From Acidiferrobacteraceae bacterium (lineage in GTDB: Bacteria > Pseudomonadota > Gammaproteobacteria > Arenicellales > UBA868), in the NCBI GenBank assembly GCA_002731295.1, contig PCBE01000121.1, forward strand, positions 1-13,719: DNA of 13,719 bases. The letters run 5' to 3'. Made by a program: the position numbers and the translations under genes. The notes under the pieces were generated by a model. It was not told the DNA's origin. It made no database searches and saw nothing but the letters and a program-made list of their open reading frames with translations. The stretch's first letter is position 1, and each line of letters opens with the position of its first letter. Positions 1,674 through 10,576 of this stretch are shown here, one piece after another.

Positions 1674-1719
1674 TTCACTCCACCTCGGGCGATTACGCGA
1701 GTTTGTGCTGGCTCTATCC

Positions 1720-1782
1720 AGTATAAACAAGACTCCGGATATTTCCGGAAGTGGCTCGCCTTAATAAGCGAGCTTAGCCGGA
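1720..1782. promoter_or_regulatory. Divergent control region with palindromes and a -10-like hexamer
   Basis: The 249 bases between the divergent lyase and oxygenase-like genes hold clustered symmetry. On the minus strand TATACT (1725-1720) matches the -10 consensus at five of six positions and would serve the lyase. Immediately upstream is an imperfect palindrome, ACTCCGGA and TTCCGGAAGT (1732-1739 and 1743-1752). Next comes a perfect 6-base inverted repeat GCTCGC/GCGAGC (1754-1759 and 1768-1773), and a third CCGGA box at 1778-1782. The position over a would-be -35 suits a regulator site. No convincing -35 was found, and which regulator would bind is unknown. Confidence 0.3.
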
Positions 1783-1922
1783 AACGTAACGAAGTGATTG
1801 ATAGAATGGTGGTTATGGATGGGATCATGGTGCAACAGTTTCAATTTCAAATTCGGGAGGACCCGGGCAATCTCTAGCGGGAGCTCATTTCCCTGATCAG
1901 GACAGACTGCCATAACAAACCA

Positions 1923-2957
1923 ATGACAGACTACGAACCTATTCCAGCTCCCGAAAATTTCCTCGACCAAGCCGAGCATTCGTGGACATTACCGGCTTAC
2001 TGGTATACCGATTCCAAAATATTCGGGAAGGAAAAGGAACAGATTTTCTATAAAAACTGGTGGTACGTGGGCGCGGTCCATCAGTTATCCAAGCCCGGTG
2101 AGTTCTTAACCACAACAGTGGTCGACCAAGAGATTTTCATCACTCGAGGCGAGGATAATGTACTACGTGCTTTCTATCCCGGTAATTTTCACGGAGCCCG
2201 CGGTGTAAAAGGTATAGAAAACTTCAACCCATCAGATTTTGGCCTGGTATCAGTCAGAGTGGAAACGCTAATTGGATTGGTTTTTGTCAATCTAGACGCC
2301 AACGCCGATGCACTGACCGATATTTCAGAATCCATGGTGAAAGATATGCGTGCGTATTGCCCGGGACTGGATGATCTGGTTCTGTCCAGAAATTACGAAC
2401 TACAAACGGCGGCGAACTGGAAAACACTGGTGGATAACGACCTGGAATCCTATCACTCGGCTGTGGCTCATCCATCGTTAATGGGATTGCTCGACTACTC
2501 AACCTTTGAAGTTTGGGAGGATCGATTTACCACATGCCATGCCATGACCAATAGTGATCCGGACAATCCAGCCTACAAGGTCGGTGCGGAAGATTCAGTT
2601 AAACGGGCGATCTATACCTGGTTGTGGCCCAACACGGCATTTTTCATTGCGCCAGGCCCCAAGAATCTCGGCGTATTTCAGATGATCCCAACCGGGCCTG
2701 AGAGTAGCCTGCAACGCTGGGAATTCTATTTTGAGAGCGAACAACCAACCGAAAGCGAGCAGGCATACCTTGACTGGACCATCAATACACTCATCCCTGA
2801 AGATACTGCGTTATACGAAAATGTCCAACACGGACTTCGTTCTCAAGGCTATTCTCAAGGCAGGTTTGTGATCAACAGAAACCGTCCTGAGTGGAGCGAA
2901 CACCACGTACATCAGTTTCAGACGCTGGTGCACGACGCAATTGTGACCGAATGCTGA
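1923..2957 (+). CDS. Rieske-oxygenase-like protein lacking the Rieske cluster
   Basis: A 344-residue homologue of the alpha subunit of GbcA/CntA-type Rieske oxygenases, and a clear paralogue of the product of 9186-10346; both C-termini share GLRS-GY-QGRFV and SEH-VH-FQ patterns. The catalytic half is kept: H178 and H183 in ESYHSAVAHPSL and D294 in LIPEDTALYENV form a 2-His-1-Asp iron site. The Rieske half is not. Where relatives have C-x-H and then C-x2-H, this protein reads FYPGNFHGARGVKGIENF (84-101), with no cysteine pair. Between the flanking conserved FY and FGL anchors it has 33 fewer residues than the intact paralogue, an exact in-frame loss. Without the [2Fe-2S] cluster it cannot take electrons as normal family members do. 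It may be a lone mononuclear-iron enzyme, a partner or regulatory subunit, or a decaying gene; the intact frame argues for function. The start has no strong ribosome-binding site. It heads the run leading to the methyltransferase 111 bases downstream. Confidence 0.85.
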   Translation: MTDYEPIPAPENFLDQAEHSWTLPAYWYTDSKIFGKEKEQIFYKNWWYVGAVHQLSKPGEFLTTTVVDQEIFITRGEDNVLRAFYPGNFHGARGVKGIENFNPSDFGLVSVRVETLIGLVFVNLDANADALTDISESMVKDMRAYCPGLDDLVLSRNYELQTAANWKTLVDNDLESYHSAVAHPSLMGLLDYSTFEVWEDRFTTCHAMTNSDPDNPAYKVGAEDSVKRAIYTWLWPNTAFFIAPGPKNLGVFQMIPTGPESSLQRWEFYFESEQPTESEQAYLDWTINTLIPEDTALYENVQHGLRSQGYSQGRFVINRNRPEWSEHHVHQFQTLVHDAIVTEC

Positions 2958-3068
2958 CTCCATGAGCACATGCAAGAACCTGGAAGACTTGTTAGATCTC
3001 TTTCAACGTTTGGTCGTTCAGCACATGTGCGAACAAAGACATGCCTCTGTGGTCCAGCGAGGACACCA

Positions 3069-3839
3069 ATGAGTAAGGCTCAAAACGCCACCCAGAAATT
3101 TCTGGACACGAATCAGTATTCCCGTAACTCAATATTGCGCTATGAATCAGTATACGGCACAGACTTCGTTAGCCCGGGTGGACGGCAGTACGCCTCTCAA
3201 CTGATTGAAAAACTCGCGCTCCCGTTCGATTCCACGGTACTCGATGTGGGCTGTGGTCTTGGCGGCAGCGCTTTTCTTATGGCTCAGAAGTTCAACCTGT
3301 TTGTAGATGGGATAGATCTTTCAACCAATATGTTGGCACTAGCACGAGAGCGGCTCTCAACATACCGATTGGGCAGTCGTGTCACTCTCCGCCACCAAGA
3401 CTGCCTGACCCTGAGCCTTCATGACCACTACGACGCGGTTTACAGCAGGGATGTGTTTCTGCATATCCAGGACAAGTCACATCTTTTTTCAACCCTGTAC
3501 AACGCGTTGAGGCGACCGGGTAAATTGTTGTTCACCGATTATTGTTGCAGTGAACAGCCCTGGCGTCCAGATTTTTCCCGTTATGTGAAAAGCCGCGGTT
3601 ATCACTTGCGTACAGTTTCACAATACGCAGATTTGTTATCTCAGGCCGGTTTCCAAGAAGTCCTTGCGTTGGATATTACCGCTCGCTTCATCGCAATTCT
3701 TGAGTCGGATATAACAAAAATAGCTGCCTTAGAGATGGATAAAGTCAGTCGGGACGAGTTGACGGAAAGTTGGCGCAGTAAACTGAACCGAGCCCATTCC
3801 GGCAATCATCGGTGGGGACTGTTTACCGGCGTAAAATAG
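3069..3839 (+). CDS. Phosphoethanolamine N-methyltransferase-like SAM enzyme
   Basis: A 256-residue SAM-dependent methyltransferase of the phosphobase (PMT) type, which in Plasmodium, nematodes and plants methylates phosphoethanolamine stepwise to phosphocholine. The SAM site is VLDVGCGLGG (57-66) with GIDLS (81-85). The match to the remembered Plasmodium enzyme runs along the whole length: FLDTNQYS (Y17), FVSPGG (33-38), YSRDVFLHI (125-133, with the catalytic-type D128 and H132), TDYCC (Y158), YVKSRGY (Y172, R176, Y178) and the C-terminal RSKLNRAHSGNHRWG with K238. These positions correspond to residues that hold the phosphate and the amine in PMT. The start at 3069 is chosen because GAGGA lies 5 bases before it; the frame stays open 33 codons further upstream, but that segment looks unlike the family. 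The GMC oxidoreductase follows after 78 bases. A different amine substrate is possible. Confidence 0.85.
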   Translation: MSKAQNATQKFLDTNQYSRNSILRYESVYGTDFVSPGGRQYASQLIEKLALPFDSTVLDVGCGLGGSAFLMAQKFNLFVDGIDLSTNMLALARERLSTYRLGSRVTLRHQDCLTLSLHDHYDAVYSRDVFLHIQDKSHLFSTLYNALRRPGKLLFTDYCCSEQPWRPDFSRYVKSRGYHLRTVSQYADLLSQAGFQEVLALDITARFIAILESDITKIAALEMDKVSRDELTESWRSKLNRAHSGNHRWGLFTGVK

Positions 3840-3917
3840 CGACTTGTCGATTAACCGCATCCGAGTATGTGACCACCCGCTCCTAAATAACGAGAAACTG
3901 CTATAGATGATCCTACG

Positions 3918-5519
3918 ATGAATGCAACCAACACTTTTGATTTCATCATTGTCGGCGCTGGCTCGGCTGGCTGTGTACTGGCAAACCACTTGAGCGCGGA
4001 TCGGCGCTTCACTGTACTGTTAATCGAAGCAGGGAAAATGAGTCACCCCCTCACACCAGTGCCGATCAGCTTCAGCCGCTTCATCGACAATCCGAAAGTC
4101 AACTGGTGCTATGGGTCGGAACCCGAACCGGTCATGGCCCAACGGTCGATACCAGTTCCCCGCGGCCGGATGCTTGGTGGTTCGAGTGCCATCAACGGAT
4201 TGGTATACGTACGCGGCCAGCCGTTGGATTACAACAACTGGGCACAATTGGGCAACAGAGGCTGGAGCTTCGACGATGTCCTGCCGATCTTTCAGCGCAT
4301 GGAGAACTACGAACCAGGGGCAGATGAATGGCGTAGGCAAGGTGGGCCACTGCATGTCAGCGAAGTTGCGGATCAGAATCCGCTGTACGATGCCTTAATT
4401 GCCGCCGGCGAAGAGATCGGGTTACCTAACAATCCGGACTACAATGGTGCCGACCAGACCGGCCTGTGCAAAACTCAGACCACCATTCGCGGTGGGAAAC
4501 GCATGAGCACGGCGGTGGCTTATCTGGAGCCGGCGAGGTCCCGCCCGAACCTAACGATTGCGACCGAGGCCTTGGCGCACCGTCTAACGTTAAACGGAAA
4601 ACGATGCACAGGCATCAGCTATGCGGTAGACGGCCGTACTATTGATGCCCAGGCGCGTGTAGAGGTGATCCTGTGCTGCGGGTCAATCAATTCGCCGCAG
4701 CTTCTGGAGCTATCTGGGATTGGACAACCTGCCCTGTTGAAATCTCAGGGAATTGAGGTGTGCCATGGCTTGCCGGGCGTTGGCGAGAGTTTGCGCGATC
4801 ACATCGCTCCACGCATGGGTTGGACAATCAGCAAACGTGGCGTGACGTTCAACGATCGGGCACGCGGTCTCGGGCTCCTGTGGCAAGTTGCCAGATACGC
4901 GATCAAAAGGGACGGCTTTTTGAGTCTTCCGTCGGCCCCGCTTGTTGCTTTCATTAAAACCCATGCCGACCTGGTGAGCCCCGACGCCCAGCTCCATCTC
5001 GTCCCGTATGCGTTTTCCCCCACCACACGCAGATTGCTTGACGAACCCGGTATGACGATTACCGTTTACCAGTTGCGCCCGGAAAGTCTGGGGTCAATTC
5101 ATATCAAGTCGACGGATCCACATGAGGCGCCGGCTATTCGTTTCAATTTCTTGTCCAACCCGCTGGACCGACAGACCCTGGTAGATGCCGTGCGTTTCAC
5201 CAGGCGTCTGATGCAGGCGCCGGCGATGGATCAGTTTCGCGGTATCGAGTTCAAGCCTGGGCCCGACGTACAAAGTGATGACGAGATTATCGAGTGGATC
5301 GGTAAAACCGCAGAAACGGCCTATCATCCGATCGGCACCTGCCGCATGGGCAACGATGAGAACGCAGTAGTCAACAACCAATTACAGGTACACGGTATCG
5401 AAGGTTTACGTATCGCCGACGGCTCTATCATGCCGACCCTTGTCTCAGGCAACACGAACGCCGCCTGCATTATGATCGGTGAAAAAGCCGCAGACATGAT
5501 TCTCGCTGAACAGAGGTGA
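3918..5519 (+). CDS. GMC-family FAD oxidoreductase, choline dehydrogenase-like
   Basis: A 533-residue flavin-dependent alcohol dehydrogenase of the glucose-methanol-choline family. The N-terminal FAD-binding motif is FIIVGAGSAGCVLANHLS, followed by the acidic FAD-ribose residue in LLIEAGK. Both family signatures are present: PRGRMLGGSSAINGLVYVRG near residue 90 and GSINSPQLLELSGIG near residue 255. The catalytic pair is H470 in AYHPIGTCRMG and N514 in NTNAACIMIGEKAAD, the His-Asn type seen in choline oxidase. Length fits BetA-like dehydrogenases. The family covers many alcohols and sequence alone does not prove choline. The neighbouring phosphobase methyltransferase makes an amino-alcohol substrate attractive, but that is inference; no betaine-aldehyde dehydrogenase accompanies it. 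The start lacks a clear ribosome-binding site. Confidence 0.88.
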   Translation: MNATNTFDFIIVGAGSAGCVLANHLSADRRFTVLLIEAGKMSHPLTPVPISFSRFIDNPKVNWCYGSEPEPVMAQRSIPVPRGRMLGGSSAINGLVYVRGQPLDYNNWAQLGNRGWSFDDVLPIFQRMENYEPGADEWRRQGGPLHVSEVADQNPLYDALIAAGEEIGLPNNPDYNGADQTGLCKTQTTIRGGKRMSTAVAYLEPARSRPNLTIATEALAHRLTLNGKRCTGISYAVDGRTIDAQARVEVILCCGSINSPQLLELSGIGQPALLKSQGIEVCHGLPGVGESLRDHIAPRMGWTISKRGVTFNDRARGLGLLWQVARYAIKRDGFLSLPSAPLVAFIKTHADLVSPDAQLHLVPYAFSPTTRRLLDEPGMTITVYQLRPESLGSIHIKSTDPHEAPAIRFNFLSNPLDRQTLVDAVRFTRRLMQAPAMDQFRGIEFKPGPDVQSDDEIIEWIGKTAETAYHPIGTCRMGNDENAVVNNQLQVHGIEGLRIADGSIMPTLVSGNTNAACIMIGEKAADMILAEQR

Positions 5520-5651: not shown

Positions 5652-6455
5652 ATGCGGATAGACCCGTATCTGGATCGCATCGAGTACCACGGGTCGCGCG
5701 AACCGACTACTGAGACACTGCGGCAACTTCACCGAGCGCATATGCTCGCTGTCCCCTTTGAGAATCTCGATATCCCGCTGGGTCAGCCCATCGTTCTCTC
5801 CCTCCCATCGTTCTACGACAAGATCGTTCGACATCGTCGGGGAGGATTTTGTTATGAACTCAACGGCTTGTTTGGTTGGCTGCTTGAACAAATGGGTTTT
5901 CGGGTGGTGACGCTGTCAGCGCGGGTGTTCGACAAAGGCCAGCCAGGCGCAGAATTCGGCCATATGGTTCTGATGATCGAGATCGAGGAACGCCTTATTG
6001 CCGACGTCGGATTCGGGGAATCGTTTCTGGAACCACTTCAGCTTGAAATGGGCACAGAAAATATACAGCAGGGCAATGCATACCGCCTGACAGGGAAAGG
6101 CCCCGAGAAGATCCTTGAGCGGCGTCTGACTTCTGATTGGGCATCTCAATACGCCTTTGCGCTGATTCCCCGTCGACTGGATGACTTCACCGCAATGTGT
6201 CAACAACACCAGACATCCGCGACGTCTATTTTCACGCAAAAAACGGTATGCTCACTGGCAACAACATCGGGGCGTATCACGTTGTCCAATAACAAGTTAA
6301 TCAAGACGAGCGGGCGGGGGCACGAGGAACAGGAGGTGACAGAGGAGTCGGAATACCGCGCACTGCTAAAAACCGAGTTCGGAATAGATCTCAATGAAAC
6401 GCTGCGCGTTGACAGGCTCATGGCACTGGGCACACCGTCTGTGGGCGGGACTTGA
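5652..6455 (+). CDS. Arylamine N-acetyltransferase
   Basis: A 267-residue member of the arylamine N-acetyltransferase (NAT) family, which moves acetyl or other acyl groups from CoA to aromatic amines, hydrazines or, in some biosynthetic clusters, closes amide bonds. The Cys-His-Asp triad is visible: C67 in RRGGFCYELN, H104 in FGHMVL and D118 in DVGFG. The N-terminal VPFENLDI block is also typical, and the length is within the usual 250-290. AGGA lies 8 bases before the ATG. The 132-base gap after the GMC gene holds a perfect 10-base palindrome CGAGATCTCG (5595-5604), so it may have its own control or be read through from upstream. It converges on the next gene with only 23 bases between the stops. 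The natural substrate cannot be inferred. Confidence 0.9.
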   Translation: MRIDPYLDRIEYHGSREPTTETLRQLHRAHMLAVPFENLDIPLGQPIVLSLPSFYDKIVRHRRGGFCYELNGLFGWLLEQMGFRVVTLSARVFDKGQPGAEFGHMVLMIEIEERLIADVGFGESFLEPLQLEMGTENIQQGNAYRLTGKGPEKILERRLTSDWASQYAFALIPRRLDDFTAMCQQHQTSATSIFTQKTVCSLATTSGRITLSNNKLIKTSGRGHEEQEVTEESEYRALLKTEFGIDLNETLRVDRLMALGTPSVGGT

Positions 6456-6478
6456 ACAAAAGATCGATCCAATCATTT

Positions 6479-7039
6479 TCAGCGTGTTTCTCCATCCAGT
6501 GTGACCCCAAGACCCAGGACGACCCGATTTGCATAAGCGAAGTACCCAGTAACCTGGTTAACCTCCAAGATCTCACCATCACTGGCTCCAGCGGCTCGCA
6601 GAGTTTCGATCGATTCAACTGTCAATGCCGCCGGAGCAAGGGTCAAGGCCCGTACATACCCAAGAAGGGCCAATTCCTTACCATCGAATACTTCCTCTAA
6701 GCGATCACCCATCAGCGCATCGGCAATGGCCAACCATTTCTCCGGCTTTCCGGCATACGCCAGCCCACCTGCATAGGTATGATGATCTATGCAATACGTA
6801 CACTGGTTGAGGACACTGACGTAAAGACCCACTGCCTCTAAATACCAGAGTGCCAGTACATTGCCAGTATGTCCGAGAACGGCCCGGTAGAGTGCCGTAT
6901 GACCTTCTAGAGTATGCGGGCGTAGCGAGTGGGCGCTGAAGATATTGGCAATGGTGCCGTTCGGTCGCTGATATTTCTCGTACAGGGTTTTCAAGCGGCC
7001 AGCTGAATCTCCCCGTGATACCGATTTAATCCAGGTCAT
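6479..7039 (-). CDS. AhpD/carboxymuconolactone decarboxylase-family protein
   Basis: A 186-residue all-helical protein of the carboxymuconolactone decarboxylase/AhpD-like family, of the kind annotated as peroxidase-related enzyme. The redox motif is NQCTYCIDHH, with C80, C83 and H87 in the C-x2-C-x3-H pattern, and E68 twelve residues ahead of C80 corresponds to the usual proton-relay glutamate. Members reduce peroxides or act as thiol-disulfide enzymes; some have other roles. It is cytoplasmic, with no signal peptide. The ATG at 7039 has no good ribosome-binding site, but the N-terminus fits the family. It lies convergent to the acetyltransferase and downstream, on the same strand, of the Rieske-mttB pair, separated from it by 541 bases containing a tRNA fragment. 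Co-transcription with that pair is therefore unlikely. Confidence 0.83.
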   Translation of the reverse strand: MTWIKSVSRGDSAGRLKTLYEKYQRPNGTIANIFSAHSLRPHTLEGHTALYRAVLGHTGNVLALWYLEAVGLYVSVLNQCTYCIDHHTYAGGLAYAGKPEKWLAIADALMGDRLEEVFDGKELALLGYVRALTLAPAALTVESIETLRAAGASDGEILEVNQVTGYFAYANRVVLGLGVTLDGETR

Positions 7040-7580: not shown

Positions 7581-9146
7581 TCAGCTTCCCATTTGGGACT
7601 TGGGTAGGTGAATTGGGAATTCTTGTCTGATCTTTGCGTCGACTGAGTCGCCGAAGAAATTTGGGTAGTGGGAGCTGAGAATTTCATCAACCGTTTCTCG
7701 GCTCCTTGAGAAAAGATCTTGGGACCCTTCTTTTTCCCATTGATCCGTTGGCGTACGATCCATCAACGTGGGGTACACATACTCACTTTCCATATGGGCC
7801 AGCGTCTGGCTATTGCCTAAGAAGTGTCCGGGATCGATCGCGCTTGAGTGGATTACGTCAACGGAGAGGGTATCGTCTGAGACTTCAATGCCGCGTAGCG
7901 ATCTTGCGATCATGCCGATCGCCTCATTGTCGATGACCATGGATTCAAAACTGCAACCCATGAGGCTGCCCATCATCCCCCCAAACTCACAGAGTCGGTT
8001 CGCGCCCGCGTGTGCGGCCAGGGTATAGCTCAGCGCTTTTTCATAGCCGTATTGCGCATCAGGGATTTTTGCATCTGTCATCCCGCACCCGACACTGGTC
8101 GGAAGGTTGTAGAAGTTACCCATCTGAATTGCTGCGGCGGCGATAAGCGCCTGTTCGCCACCACCGCCACTAAAAGATCCGGTTCGCAAGTCCGTGATGA
8201 ATGGCCAGGCCGCAAAAGTCATCGGGCATCCTGGTTTGATGAGGTTGACAACAGCAAGGCAGGCCAATGTTTCTGCGACGACTTGGGCCAGGAGACCTGC
8301 AAGCAGTGCCGGTGCGGTGGCCCCAGATTGCGGTGCCACAGCGATGTCGCTGGTCAACCCCATCTTGCTGGCATCGATCAGAATTTCAAGGTTTTCCCGT
8401 CCAAATCTGAGCGGCGACACAATGGGACAGCCACCAAAAATGACCGAAGGTTTCTTGAGGAATGTCCCTTCGCCACCCGAAGCCAGGTCAAATAGACGAA
8501 TCGCAGGCGGAATGTTGTTGCGATTTCTGAAGGTGACACACGCCGGCTTCTCACTTGCCGCAAGAATAGCATAGAGCATATTGACATCATGTTCGTAGTC
8601 GTTTGGAACATCGGTCGCCAAGACGGTGTCACCCGACATATGAATATTGTCGAGCTTATCGACGAGTCGCGTGAAATCATAAATGTCCTGAAGCGTGGAT
8701 GGCCGATAAGTTTTTGACTTGGCATCAAAAGTCGTTACCGCGGTGCCCGAATTAGAAAAATAAACACTGTTATTCTTGCAGTGGATATCATCTTTACCCG
8801 CCCGGCTACCACGGGCGTACACCTGGTATTCACTGGCGGCACCGGCAAGAACATCCTCTACTAAGGCGCGGGGAAAACAAAGACGTCCATACTCGTTCTG
8901 AAAGGCCCCTCTAGGAAGCACGAGGTCAAGAAGTTCTTCGGTCGCATCTGCGATGCCAGTCTGCTCAACGATTGTGAGTGCGGCTTGATGGACTTTCCCC
9001 ACATCCCTTTCAGTCAGTGGTTGATAAAGCCCACCTTCGATACCCGGCCAGATGGCATTTGAATTAGAGGAATTTGCACGGTCTTTTCGTCGTGCCTCGC
9101 GGCCCCGACGTTTACGGCGGCTGGTCTGTTTGGTTTTTTCGGTCAT
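7581..9146 (-). CDS. MttB-superfamily (trimethylamine methyltransferase-like) protein, non-pyrrolysine
   Basis: A 521-residue member of the MttB superfamily (COG5598 type), TIM-barrel enzymes that pass a methyl group from a quaternary or tertiary amine to a cognate corrinoid protein. The N-terminus is Lys/Arg-rich (KQTSRRKRRGREARRKDR), as in many proteobacterial members. Family blocks follow: LYQPLTERDVGKVH, the glycine-rich middle, DAQYGYEKALSYTLAAHAGA, and FGGMMGSLMGCSFESMVIDN near residue 400. The frame has no internal TAG, so it is not the archaeal pyrrolysine type. Known non-pyrrolysine members act on glycine betaine, proline betaine, carnitine or gamma-butyrobetaine. The ATG at 9146 is chosen; a TTG at 9179 would start 6 bases after the upstream stop and cannot be excluded, as neither has a good ribosome-binding site. 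It lies directly downstream of the Rieske gene, almost certainly in one transcript. No corrinoid protein gene is in the window, so the methyl acceptor is unknown. Confidence 0.87.
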   Translation of the reverse strand: MTEKTKQTSRRKRRGREARRKDRANSSNSNAIWPGIEGGLYQPLTERDVGKVHQAALTIVEQTGIADATEELLDLVLPRGAFQNEYGRLCFPRALVEDVLAGAASEYQVYARGSRAGKDDIHCKNNSVYFSNSGTAVTTFDAKSKTYRPSTLQDIYDFTRLVDKLDNIHMSGDTVLATDVPNDYEHDVNMLYAILAASEKPACVTFRNRNNIPPAIRLFDLASGGEGTFLKKPSVIFGGCPIVSPLRFGRENLEILIDASKMGLTSDIAVAPQSGATAPALLAGLLAQVVAETLACLAVVNLIKPGCPMTFAAWPFITDLRTGSFSGGGGEQALIAAAAIQMGNFYNLPTSVGCGMTDAKIPDAQYGYEKALSYTLAAHAGANRLCEFGGMMGSLMGCSFESMVIDNEAIGMIARSLRGIEVSDDTLSVDVIHSSAIDPGHFLGNSQTLAHMESEYVYPTLMDRTPTDQWEKEGSQDLFSRSRETVDEILSSHYPNFFGDSVDAKIRQEFPIHLPKSQMGS

Positions 9147-9185
9147 TTCGCAGATTTCAGATACGAATCCTGTAAGCAAGCCTTG

Positions 9186-10346
9186 TTATGTCTTCTTCCA
9201 ATCAATCTTTACGCACTCGAGCGCATCCAGCAACAATTCCTGAAAATGATGCACTGCGTGCTCACTCAATTCGCTTTCCGTCTCGTCGACGACAAAACGA
9301 CCCTGGTTATATCCTTTGGATCGCAGTCCCTTTTGGACGCTTTCACACAAGCCGATATCCTCTGGCTGTAGAACCTCGTCCATATAGGTGATCGCATCGT
9401 CGAGCTGTTTGGTTCGCTTTCCTTCCAGCGTATAACAATCCAGATATTCAATGGATTTTTCTGCTCCGATTGGAATGATCTGCAGGGTCAGGATCAGGGG
9501 TTCACCGGGATAGGCCCAGATAGTCAGATTGGGCCACAGGTACCAGGCTGCGTAGCCGAAGTCGACATCGCCTTTTTCGAAACTGTAGGCTGCGTTGCTC
9601 TCCGATCGCGGCGCGGCTGCGATATGGCTTGAATGAATGCTGTAAGTCGTGGTGGTGTACGAATCCATGTCCATCAGGTCCACCAGTGCAGGATGGGCGG
9701 GGTGGCAGTGATAGCATTCTAGGAAGTTGTCAATCAGGACTTTCCAGTTGCAGGCCACTTCGTAAGTGACTCGTCCGGCGTATCCCAGCTCTGCTAGTTT
9801 CGGCATGTAGTGACGGATTTCCTGTTCCAGTCCCACGGTCTGGTCGTTCAGGGATTCCGCGTCTGGATCGAGGTTGACGTAAACGAAATCGGCAACAATT
9901 TCGACGCGCACAGATTTGAGACCGAAATTGCACTTGTTGAAATCCGGCAGATCTTCTGTGTTCCGCGCCCGCACCAGCGTTCCGTCAAAATCATACGTCC
10001 AACTATGATACGGACAGACTATCCGATTCTTGAGGTGTCCAGAGTCGTCCTTAATTAATTCGTGTCCCCGATGCTGACAGGCGTTGTAAAACCCGCGAAT
10101 TTCGCCGTCTCTCCCCTTGATCACCAGGATACCCTGGTCCTGTACGTCTACCCGTAGGTAAGAACCTGTCTGTGAAAATCGATTGATATGTCCAACCAGC
10201 CACCAGTTACGGTAAAACACCGCTTCCTTTTCGGCGTCGTACACTGCCGGATCCAGATAGTATCGGGACGGAACGGTGAAAGATCTACGCCGATCGCGGG
10301 TAAAGAGTTGGTCGTCAACATCGAATGCAAAATCGTCTTTTTTCAT
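9186..10346 (-). CDS. Rieske non-heme iron oxygenase alpha subunit, GbcA/CntA-like
   Basis: A 386-residue oxygenase subunit with both centres intact. The Rieske [2Fe-2S] ligands are C90 and H92 in NACQHRGHE and C111 and H114 in VCPYHSW. The mononuclear iron ligands are H213 and H218 in ECYHCHPAHPAL and D330 in QPEDIGLCESV. The overall pattern resembles GbcA (glycine betaine to dimethylglycine plus formaldehyde) and CntA (carnitine to trimethylamine). Which quaternary amine is used cannot be read from sequence. A separate NAD(P)H reductase is needed and none is encoded here. It is the first gene of a pair with the MttB-like gene 39 bases downstream (6 if the TTG start is used). The start is preceded by a weak AGAAG. 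Its short paralogue at 1923-2957 shares the C-terminal half but lacks the Rieske site. Confidence 0.9.
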   Translation of the reverse strand: MKKDDFAFDVDDQLFTRDRRRSFTVPSRYYLDPAVYDAEKEAVFYRNWWLVGHINRFSQTGSYLRVDVQDQGILVIKGRDGEIRGFYNACQHRGHELIKDDSGHLKNRIVCPYHSWTYDFDGTLVRARNTEDLPDFNKCNFGLKSVRVEIVADFVYVNLDPDAESLNDQTVGLEQEIRHYMPKLAELGYAGRVTYEVACNWKVLIDNFLECYHCHPAHPALVDLMDMDSYTTTTYSIHSSHIAAAPRSESNAAYSFEKGDVDFGYAAWYLWPNLTIWAYPGEPLILTLQIIPIGAEKSIEYLDCYTLEGKRTKQLDDAITYMDEVLQPEDIGLCESVQKGLRSKGYNQGRFVVDETESELSEHAVHHFQELLLDALECVKIDWKKT

Positions 10347-10354
10347 CTTCTGAC

Positions 10355-10388
10355 TCTATTGATGGCCAACACTTTTTCGTTCAATAGA
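10355..10388. promoter_or_regulatory. Inverted repeat just before the Rieske gene start
   Basis: TCTATTGA (10355-10362) and TCAATAGA (10381-10388) are perfect 8-base inverted repeats separated by 18 bases, ending 8 bases before the ATG of the Rieske gene. This may be an operator over the promoter or a stem in the leader RNA. No -10/-35 pair was convincing. The AT-rich arms make a stable RNA stem less likely than a protein site. Confidence 0.35.
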
Positions 10389-10419
10389 TAATCCCATCTT
10401 TATTCTCGCCCCGCTAGGT

Positions 10420-10460
10420 GTATTTAAGTCTATTGCCTACGACAAAGTTGTACTTAAGTC
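10420..10460. repeat. Two direct repeats of an 11-base motif, 30 bases apart
   Basis: GTATTTAAGTC (10420-10430) and GTACTTAAGTC (10450-10460) match at 10 of 11 positions and start exactly 30 bases apart, near three helical turns. They lie between the Rieske gene and the right-hand tRNA-end repeat. They could be recombinase arm sites or regulator sites for the Rieske-mttB pair; the sequence alone does not decide. Confidence 0.4.
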
Positions 10461-10513
10461 CTAAGCGAATGGTGCAGGACAGCCTGGAGTCCGCAGTGAA
10501 TCTGCTCGATCAG

Positions 10514-10532
10514 CGGTCACATTATGGTCACA
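10514..10532. repeat. 19-base repeat, right copy (phased GGTCACA tandem)
   Basis: Identical to 7278-7296 and in the same orientation, 44 bases inside the right-hand tRNA-end repeat. The left copy is 90 bases inside the left tRNA fragment. Both copies lie inside the interval bounded by the tRNA-end repeats, as expected for arm-type sites of an integrated element. Confidence 0.6.
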
Positions 10533-10576
10533 CTGGCCACCTAAAAAATAAGGAGCGTCGTAAGTCTTTGATAAGA

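Follow-up and report, generated by a model that had tools for sequence, protein, structure and literature searches.

The ligands of both metal centres have been described as an identifying feature of Rieske oxygenases (PMC10952381). CntA, a group V enzyme of known structure (PDB codes 6y9c and 6zgp), is a head-to-tail trimer. The cluster and the iron of one subunit are 44 Å apart, and electrons cross to the neighbouring subunit over 12.2 Å. The cluster is bound by Cys86, His88, Cys106 and His109, no mutant made of the bridging glutamate Glu205 was active, and an asparagine in place of residue 203 marks clade Vb, which includes stachydrine demethylase (all from the structural account, PMC7948474). 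Two published systems depart from the one-chain arrangement. NdmC, of the caffeine N7-demethylase NdmCDE, is a mononuclear-iron oxygenase without a Rieske cluster; an extra cluster on the reductase NdmD, to which a Rieske domain is fused, is thought to serve it, and the glutathione S-transferase (GST)-like NdmE is required (PMC4408171). Chlorophyllide a oxygenase (CAO) of Micromonas occurs as two polypeptide chains (PMC9615114).

The window, by which we mean the whole 13,719-nucleotide stretch analysed here, from an Acidiferrobacteraceae bacterium, encodes a 344-residue protein (Table 1) related to CntA. The only Pfam domain is PF00848, found at 97.4 bits against a cutoff of 24.9. The Rieske domain PF00355 is absent, neither C-x-H nor C-x2-H is present and the four columns that hold the cluster ligands in an alignment of relatives are all gaps. 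The closest solved structure is CntA (6y9c, E value 2.8e-56), which is alike in catalytic domain, iron ligands, bridging glutamate and overall fold; it differs in carrying the Rieske cluster, a stretch that the window protein lacks, and in having Tyr203 where the window protein has Asp173. The best NCBIfam match is the glycine betaine monooxygenase family GbcA (NF058607), yet the score is 94.5 bits where 670 is the cutoff, and the window protein has no Rieske domain. Residues 106-136 of the 6y9c chain, in two aligned pieces, have no counterpart. With an offset of 20 between the two schemes, derived from Glu205, these are residues 86-116 in the published numbering, a stretch that contains Cys86, His88, Cys106 and His109, and so the gap covers all four cluster ligands.

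Table 1. Features of the window and the Rieske-less lineages found among CntA-like relatives
Feature	Position	Strand	Basis or members
Rieske-less CntA-like oxygenase alpha subunit, 344 aa	1923..2957	+	ORF; PF00848 only; CntA 6y9c best solved relative
Leftover Rieske base-domain strands, residues 26-86	1998..2180	+	Alignment; predicted strands 47-51, 61-66, 69-75, 81-86
Excision junction; 31 residues missing against P0003, 33 against the paralogue	2172..2240	+	Alignment, model, residue readout
E175, CntA bridging glutamate E205	2445..2447	+	CntA alignment
H178, iron ligand, CntA H208	2454..2456	+	CntA alignment
H183, iron ligand, CntA H213	2469..2471	+	CntA alignment
D294, iron ligand, CntA D323	2802..2804	+	CntA alignment
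PMT-like N-methyltransferase, next gene	3069..3839 (earlier in-frame start 2970)	+	Solved relatives; same order in L050
GMC oxidoreductase, choline-dehydrogenase-like, third gene	3918..5519	+	Family models, solved relatives; same order in L050
Intact paralogue, Rieske and catalytic domains (PF00355 and PF00848)	9186..10346	-	Pfam; possible, non-conserved partner
Rieske-less lineage 1, the window's			Window, P0001, P0002, L050 (4 rows)
Rieske-less lineage 2			P0091/P0108
Rieske-less lineage 3			P0140
Rieske-less lineage 4			P0095
Rieske-less lineage 5, possibly more than one loss			P0156, P0161, P0167, P0168, P0169
Rieske-less lineage 6, diversified clade			21 rows; nearest intact row P0102

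An earlier note on this DNA had described an oxygenase that lost its Rieske cluster and kept its iron site, and that observation is confirmed. Residues 84-101 read FYPGNFHGARGVKGIENF, in frame from base 2172, as the note had it; the paralogue encoded in the window carries the cluster ligands C90, H92, C111 and H114, and H178, H183 and D294 of the shortened protein are in place, together with D171 and E175. The numbers need some correction. The spacing between the FY and FGL anchors, given as 19 residues against 52, is 20 against 53, so that the difference of 33 stands while the counts do not. A loss of 33 residues, or 99 bases, holds only against the distant window paralogue; measured against the nearest intact relative, P0003, in which the spacing is 51, it is 31 residues or 93 bases.

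An AlphaFold2 model of the window protein has a mean pLDDT of 91.1, and its two best Foldseek matches are both CntA, with TM-scores normalised to the query length of 0.85 and 0.86. In the model the strands of the Rieske base sheet are still folded and a loop replaces the cluster stretch; the parts of low confidence (segments 90-93 and 95-97, pLDDT below 50) fall within this new loop at the junction. The retained base strands, the position of the low-confidence loop at about residues 90-97 and the match to CntA together suggest that the excision follows a structural boundary. A second model, from a clade of 21 Rieske-less sequences discussed below, likewise shows the base sheet folded and a loop in place of the cluster stretch, and here the iron-site region is predicted with less confidence, blocks of residues within 161-200 having pLDDT values of 68-78.

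Homologues with the shortened segment exist, which the earlier note had proposed to look for. Among the best 120 of 704 hits in a protein search, P0001 (97% identity, representing a cluster of 292 sequences) and P0002 (89% identity, 376 sequences) have the same junction, as does L050, a copy with 94% identity in a gammaproteobacterial metagenome-assembled genome (MAG) from the Red Sea. The three group with the window protein in one clade with support values of 100/98, and in L050 the genes for the phosphoethanolamine methyltransferase (PMT)-like protein and the GMC oxidoreductase adjoin the oxygenase gene in the same order, an association the note had proposed to test. The Rieske domain is intact in P0003, which represents 37 sequences and is 69% identical to the window protein in the local alignment and 74% in the multiple alignment. 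A junction shared with other sequences speaks against chance and against an error of assembly or sequencing. The genome assembly consists of 126 contigs, the window being one of them, yet recurrence of the junction in P0001, P0002 and L050 rules such an error out in practice, and we assign it a negligible probability.

The loss is not confined to this clade. Rows for a wider comparison were taken from the best 120 of 704, 504 and 462 hits, respectively, in three protein searches, P0091 and P0132 serving as the further queries; the share of Rieske-less rows is therefore no census and no frequency can be drawn from it. The combined set of 175 rows comprises 172 database proteins, the window protein, the paralogue and L050. 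All four cluster ligands are present in 134 rows and missing from 34, the window protein and L050 included. Seven N-terminally truncated rows without the ligands (P0027, P0028, P0029, P0129, P0159, P0165 and P0166) were set aside as fragments, which leaves 168 rows for comparison. These short relatives, of 203-263 residues, lack the Rieske part and several begin right after it; some lie on long contigs, P0029 for example on one of 87 kb, and P0159 aligns to the C-terminal part of the intact P0076. They may represent frameshifts, miscalled starts or additional losses.

A careful tree was built from 87 rows, the 34 that are Rieske-less and 53 of the 134 intact ones, with the deleted region left out. 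On this tree the trait needs six changes, the starred branches force six and the range over bootstrap trees is six to seven. An earlier tree of 94 rows, for which the intact sequences had been thinned from 131 to 66, also gives six changes, five of them forced by starred branches. A single origin of all Rieske-less rows is rejected by the approximately unbiased (AU) test with p = 1.7e-68. The junctions of the lineages listed in Table 1 are unlike one another, which fits separate excisions and not regain of the domain.

Asp171, Glu175, His178, His183 and Asp294 are kept in all 34 Rieske-less rows. Glu175 is also invariant in the 134 intact rows, and its conservation may serve the iron site alone. 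A pair of cysteines near the iron, the counterpart of CntA C206/C209 and proposed to hold the iron reduced, occurs in 30 of the 34 Rieske-less and 110 of the 134 intact rows. The pair is present in every Rieske-less row outside the window clade, the four members of which have Ser-Ser instead. At the position of CntA Tyr203, asparagine is found in 32 Rieske-less rows, L050 among them, and aspartate in two; with Asp173 here, the window protein lacks the aromatic residue that defines clade Va.

The two halves of the protein have fared differently. Taking as conserved those columns with at least 95% agreement in 131 intact rows, none of the 40 in the catalytic part is lost (below 60%) across the 30 Rieske-less rows that do not belong to the window clade, whereas 3 of 16 are lost in the base sheet (residues 26-86) and the strand region 108-125. 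When conservation is judged on 24 close intact rows, 82 catalytic columns qualify, and the window protein departs at one of them, with an aspartate to glutamate change at position 267. In 12 of 12 pairings with intact kin, which were chosen by hand and are not independent of one another, the base sheet is conserved less than the catalytic domain would predict, with z values from -0.9 to -5.9. The value lies beyond -2 in eight pairs; the effect is weak for the window protein (-0.9) and strongest in the 21-row clade (-4.5 to -5.9, three pairs). We conclude that the catalytic half is kept while the remainder of the Rieske domain drifts.

Searches of genome collections added little on the other lineages. 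In samples of 398 and 299 genomes there was no match to them at E 1e-75 from which genomic context might be read, a result of little weight given that most of the sampled genomes listed are near complete. P0037 matched 10 of the 398 genomes at 1e-60, at 33-36% identity apart from the window's own genome, and in a class-level sample of 369 genomes the window's own genome was the sole match at 1e-58. A viral scan found no relative. The plasmid search with P0132 returned 66 records, and the 20 listed are all below 30% identity.

Is the gene in the window still in use? Comparison with L050 by the Nei-Gojobori method gives dN/dS of 0.169 over 314 codons (dS 0.155) and, for the catalytic half, residues 149-344, a value of 0.115, indicative of purifying selection in this one pair of sequences. 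The pair differs by 18 amino-acid changes, where 5000 neutral simulations with an equal number of changes averaged 33.3 and never fell below 22. Since 15% of those simulations were free of stop codons, the open frame by itself is weak evidence. Values for neighbouring genes are 0.075 (argH-like), 0.071 (MTTB family), 0.248 (GMC) and 0.280 (methyltransferase). The earlier note had named a deletion shared by no homologue, together with relaxed selection on the catalytic half, as the pattern of a decaying copy, and neither part is seen.

Decay nevertheless deserves consideration in another form, in which the cluster was lost recently, the gene is disappearing from the genus and the low dN/dS is a lag. 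In L050 a 96-base deletion (window positions 1917-2012; L050 8003-8004) takes the start codon and the first 30 codons, leaving residue 49 as the first in-frame start. This suggests decay in that lineage, where the gene may be dying. Residues 31-85 look relaxed, with dN/dS of 0.55 on 8 changes only, and the gene is carried by just two of four genomes of the genus and two of 109 of the order. Against this, the window protein, P0001, P0002 and L050 form one clade, so that the deletion is older than their divergence and the substitutions behind the dN/dS values accrued after the loss. The frame is complete, full-length start included, in the window gene, P0001 and P0002, and path lengths from the common fork are 0.17-0.23 for the Rieske-less sequences, comparable with 0.20 for the intact sister P0003. 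We consider such decay unlikely.

The gene following the oxygenase encodes a protein whose best solved relatives are phosphoethanolamine N-methyltransferases (best E value 3e-60). Among family models the GMC protein scores best with choline dehydrogenases, at 600.8 bits (cutoff 605) and 520 bits (cutoff 732), and among its relatives of known structure are oxidases as well as an oxygen-dependent choline dehydrogenase. An MTTB-family methyltransferase, with a glycine betaine methyltransferase among its solved relatives, is also nearby. These neighbours, together with the asparagine or aspartate in place of CntA Tyr203, indicate that the substrate is probably an N-methylated compound. Between the GMC and MTTB genes the window (5652-7039) carries an arylamine N-acetyltransferase and a peroxidase-related gene; the same interval in L050 (11898-15680), read by eye, holds a xanthine-dehydrogenase-like set of three ORFs. 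A scan of positions 1700-4000 found one promoter-like site where 2.5 are expected and four terminator-like sites where 2.0 are expected.

The earlier note suggested two meanings for the shortened protein, a new class of lone iron enzyme or a pseudo-enzyme partner of a complete oxygenase. In the first case the iron site would need no Rieske cluster. Thiols might drive it, or hydrogen peroxide through a peroxide shunt, and the peroxide could then come from the GMC flavoenzyme encoded nearby. CntA oxidises carnitine with hydrogen peroxide and does not then need its reductase (PMC7948474, PMC10952381). The GMC gene lies beside the Rieske-less gene in L050 as in the window and has oxidases among its solved relatives, no donor in trans was found nearby and most Rieske-less rows have the cysteine pair near the iron. 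The shunt and the conserved GMC neighbour make this a real rival. Yet the bridging glutamate is invariant in all Rieske-less rows, those of the diversified clade included, the best models for the GMC protein are dehydrogenases, and the cysteine pair is replaced in the window clade and kept nearly as often in intact rows. On balance a lone enzyme is distinctly unlikely here. Extended to the whole set, as autonomous Rieske-independent oxygenases, peroxide- or thiol-driven, with at least six origins by excision and one lineage diversified into a family of its own, the proposal is more doubtful still.

If the iron is instead served in trans, candidates for the donor are available in the same genome, which is 81.5% complete and has 16 Rieske sites. 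A Rieske domain accompanies PF00848 at 11 of the 12 places where the latter occurs. The other five Rieske sites, read by eye, fall in a bc1-like protein, in two small ferredoxin-like proteins and in two oxygenase-like sequences that PF00848 does not hit. We recognised no NdmD-type Rieske-bearing reductase among the 16 sites, five of them judged by eye in this incomplete genome, and none of nine window proteins scanned matches a GST family, in which respects the locus differs from the caffeine system. No dedicated partner was found. The intact paralogue in the window is a possible partner, as the note supposed, but not a conserved one: G002, the other genome that carries the Rieske-less gene, lacks it on the corresponding contig, and the best match to it anywhere in that genome is only 46% identical. 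In G002 the oxygenase beside the MTTB gene is replaced by a shorter stretch (window 9139-10560 against L097 9085-9925), with a cupin-like ORF on the minus strand (L097 9326-9691; Cupin_2 E value 3e-5, under the curated cutoff) at its place. The paralogue is thus no fixed partner, and its role as an obligate one is unsupported.

A partner of a different kind would be a regulatory or structural pseudo-subunit that takes a place in the trimers of an intact oxygenase and adjusts their activity with no turnover of its own. The models, in which the base sheet and overall fold persist, and the head-to-tail assembly of CntA are compatible with such a role. A pseudo-enzyme would, however, be free to lose the iron ligands, which are invariant in all 34 Rieske-less rows, and comparison of the window with the matching G002 contig reveals no conserved partner gene. 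We regard this role as very unlikely.

That the same cut was made several separate times, with the iron site under selection, suggests that the electron relay either comes from a second protein or has become dispensable. Our best reading, to which we give about an even chance, is that of a working mononuclear-iron oxygenase subunit, CntA-like and of group V, that has shed its own cluster-binding stretch and would be supplied with electrons by a Rieske cluster that a different protein carries. The donor might be an intact alpha subunit of an oxygenase with which it forms a mixed trimer, or else a small Rieske ferredoxin. As the iron of CntA is fed by the cluster of the neighbouring subunit, a clusterless subunit could still be served by a neighbour. 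Activity, the donor in trans and the mixed oligomer are what we infer in this reading.

Loss of the Rieske cluster in the CntA-like subfamily is genuine, selected and recurrent. To speak of a new class, as the earlier note did, is too strong, given that the two-chain CAO of Micromonas and NdmC, whose reductase bears the Rieske domain that serves it, are already published. The two chains of the Micromonas enzyme reportedly carry the Rieske centre and the iron, respectively (Kunugi, 2013). That system is algal and belongs to a distant subfamily, and here no alpha subunit with the Rieske half alone was identified. What seems to be new is the repetition within one subfamily and the presence of a diversified Rieske-less clade; among the titles and opening parts of abstracts surveyed there is no description of repeated loss in CntA-like oxygenases. 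Existing names hide these proteins: among the Rieske-less rows named by their source, one is an 'SRPBCC family protein', and the labels of some others are choline monooxygenase or carnitine monooxygenase subunit. Repeated excision alongside an invariant iron site amounts to a natural experiment, run several times over, that bears on whether the cluster has to act in cis, can act in trans, or is needed at all.
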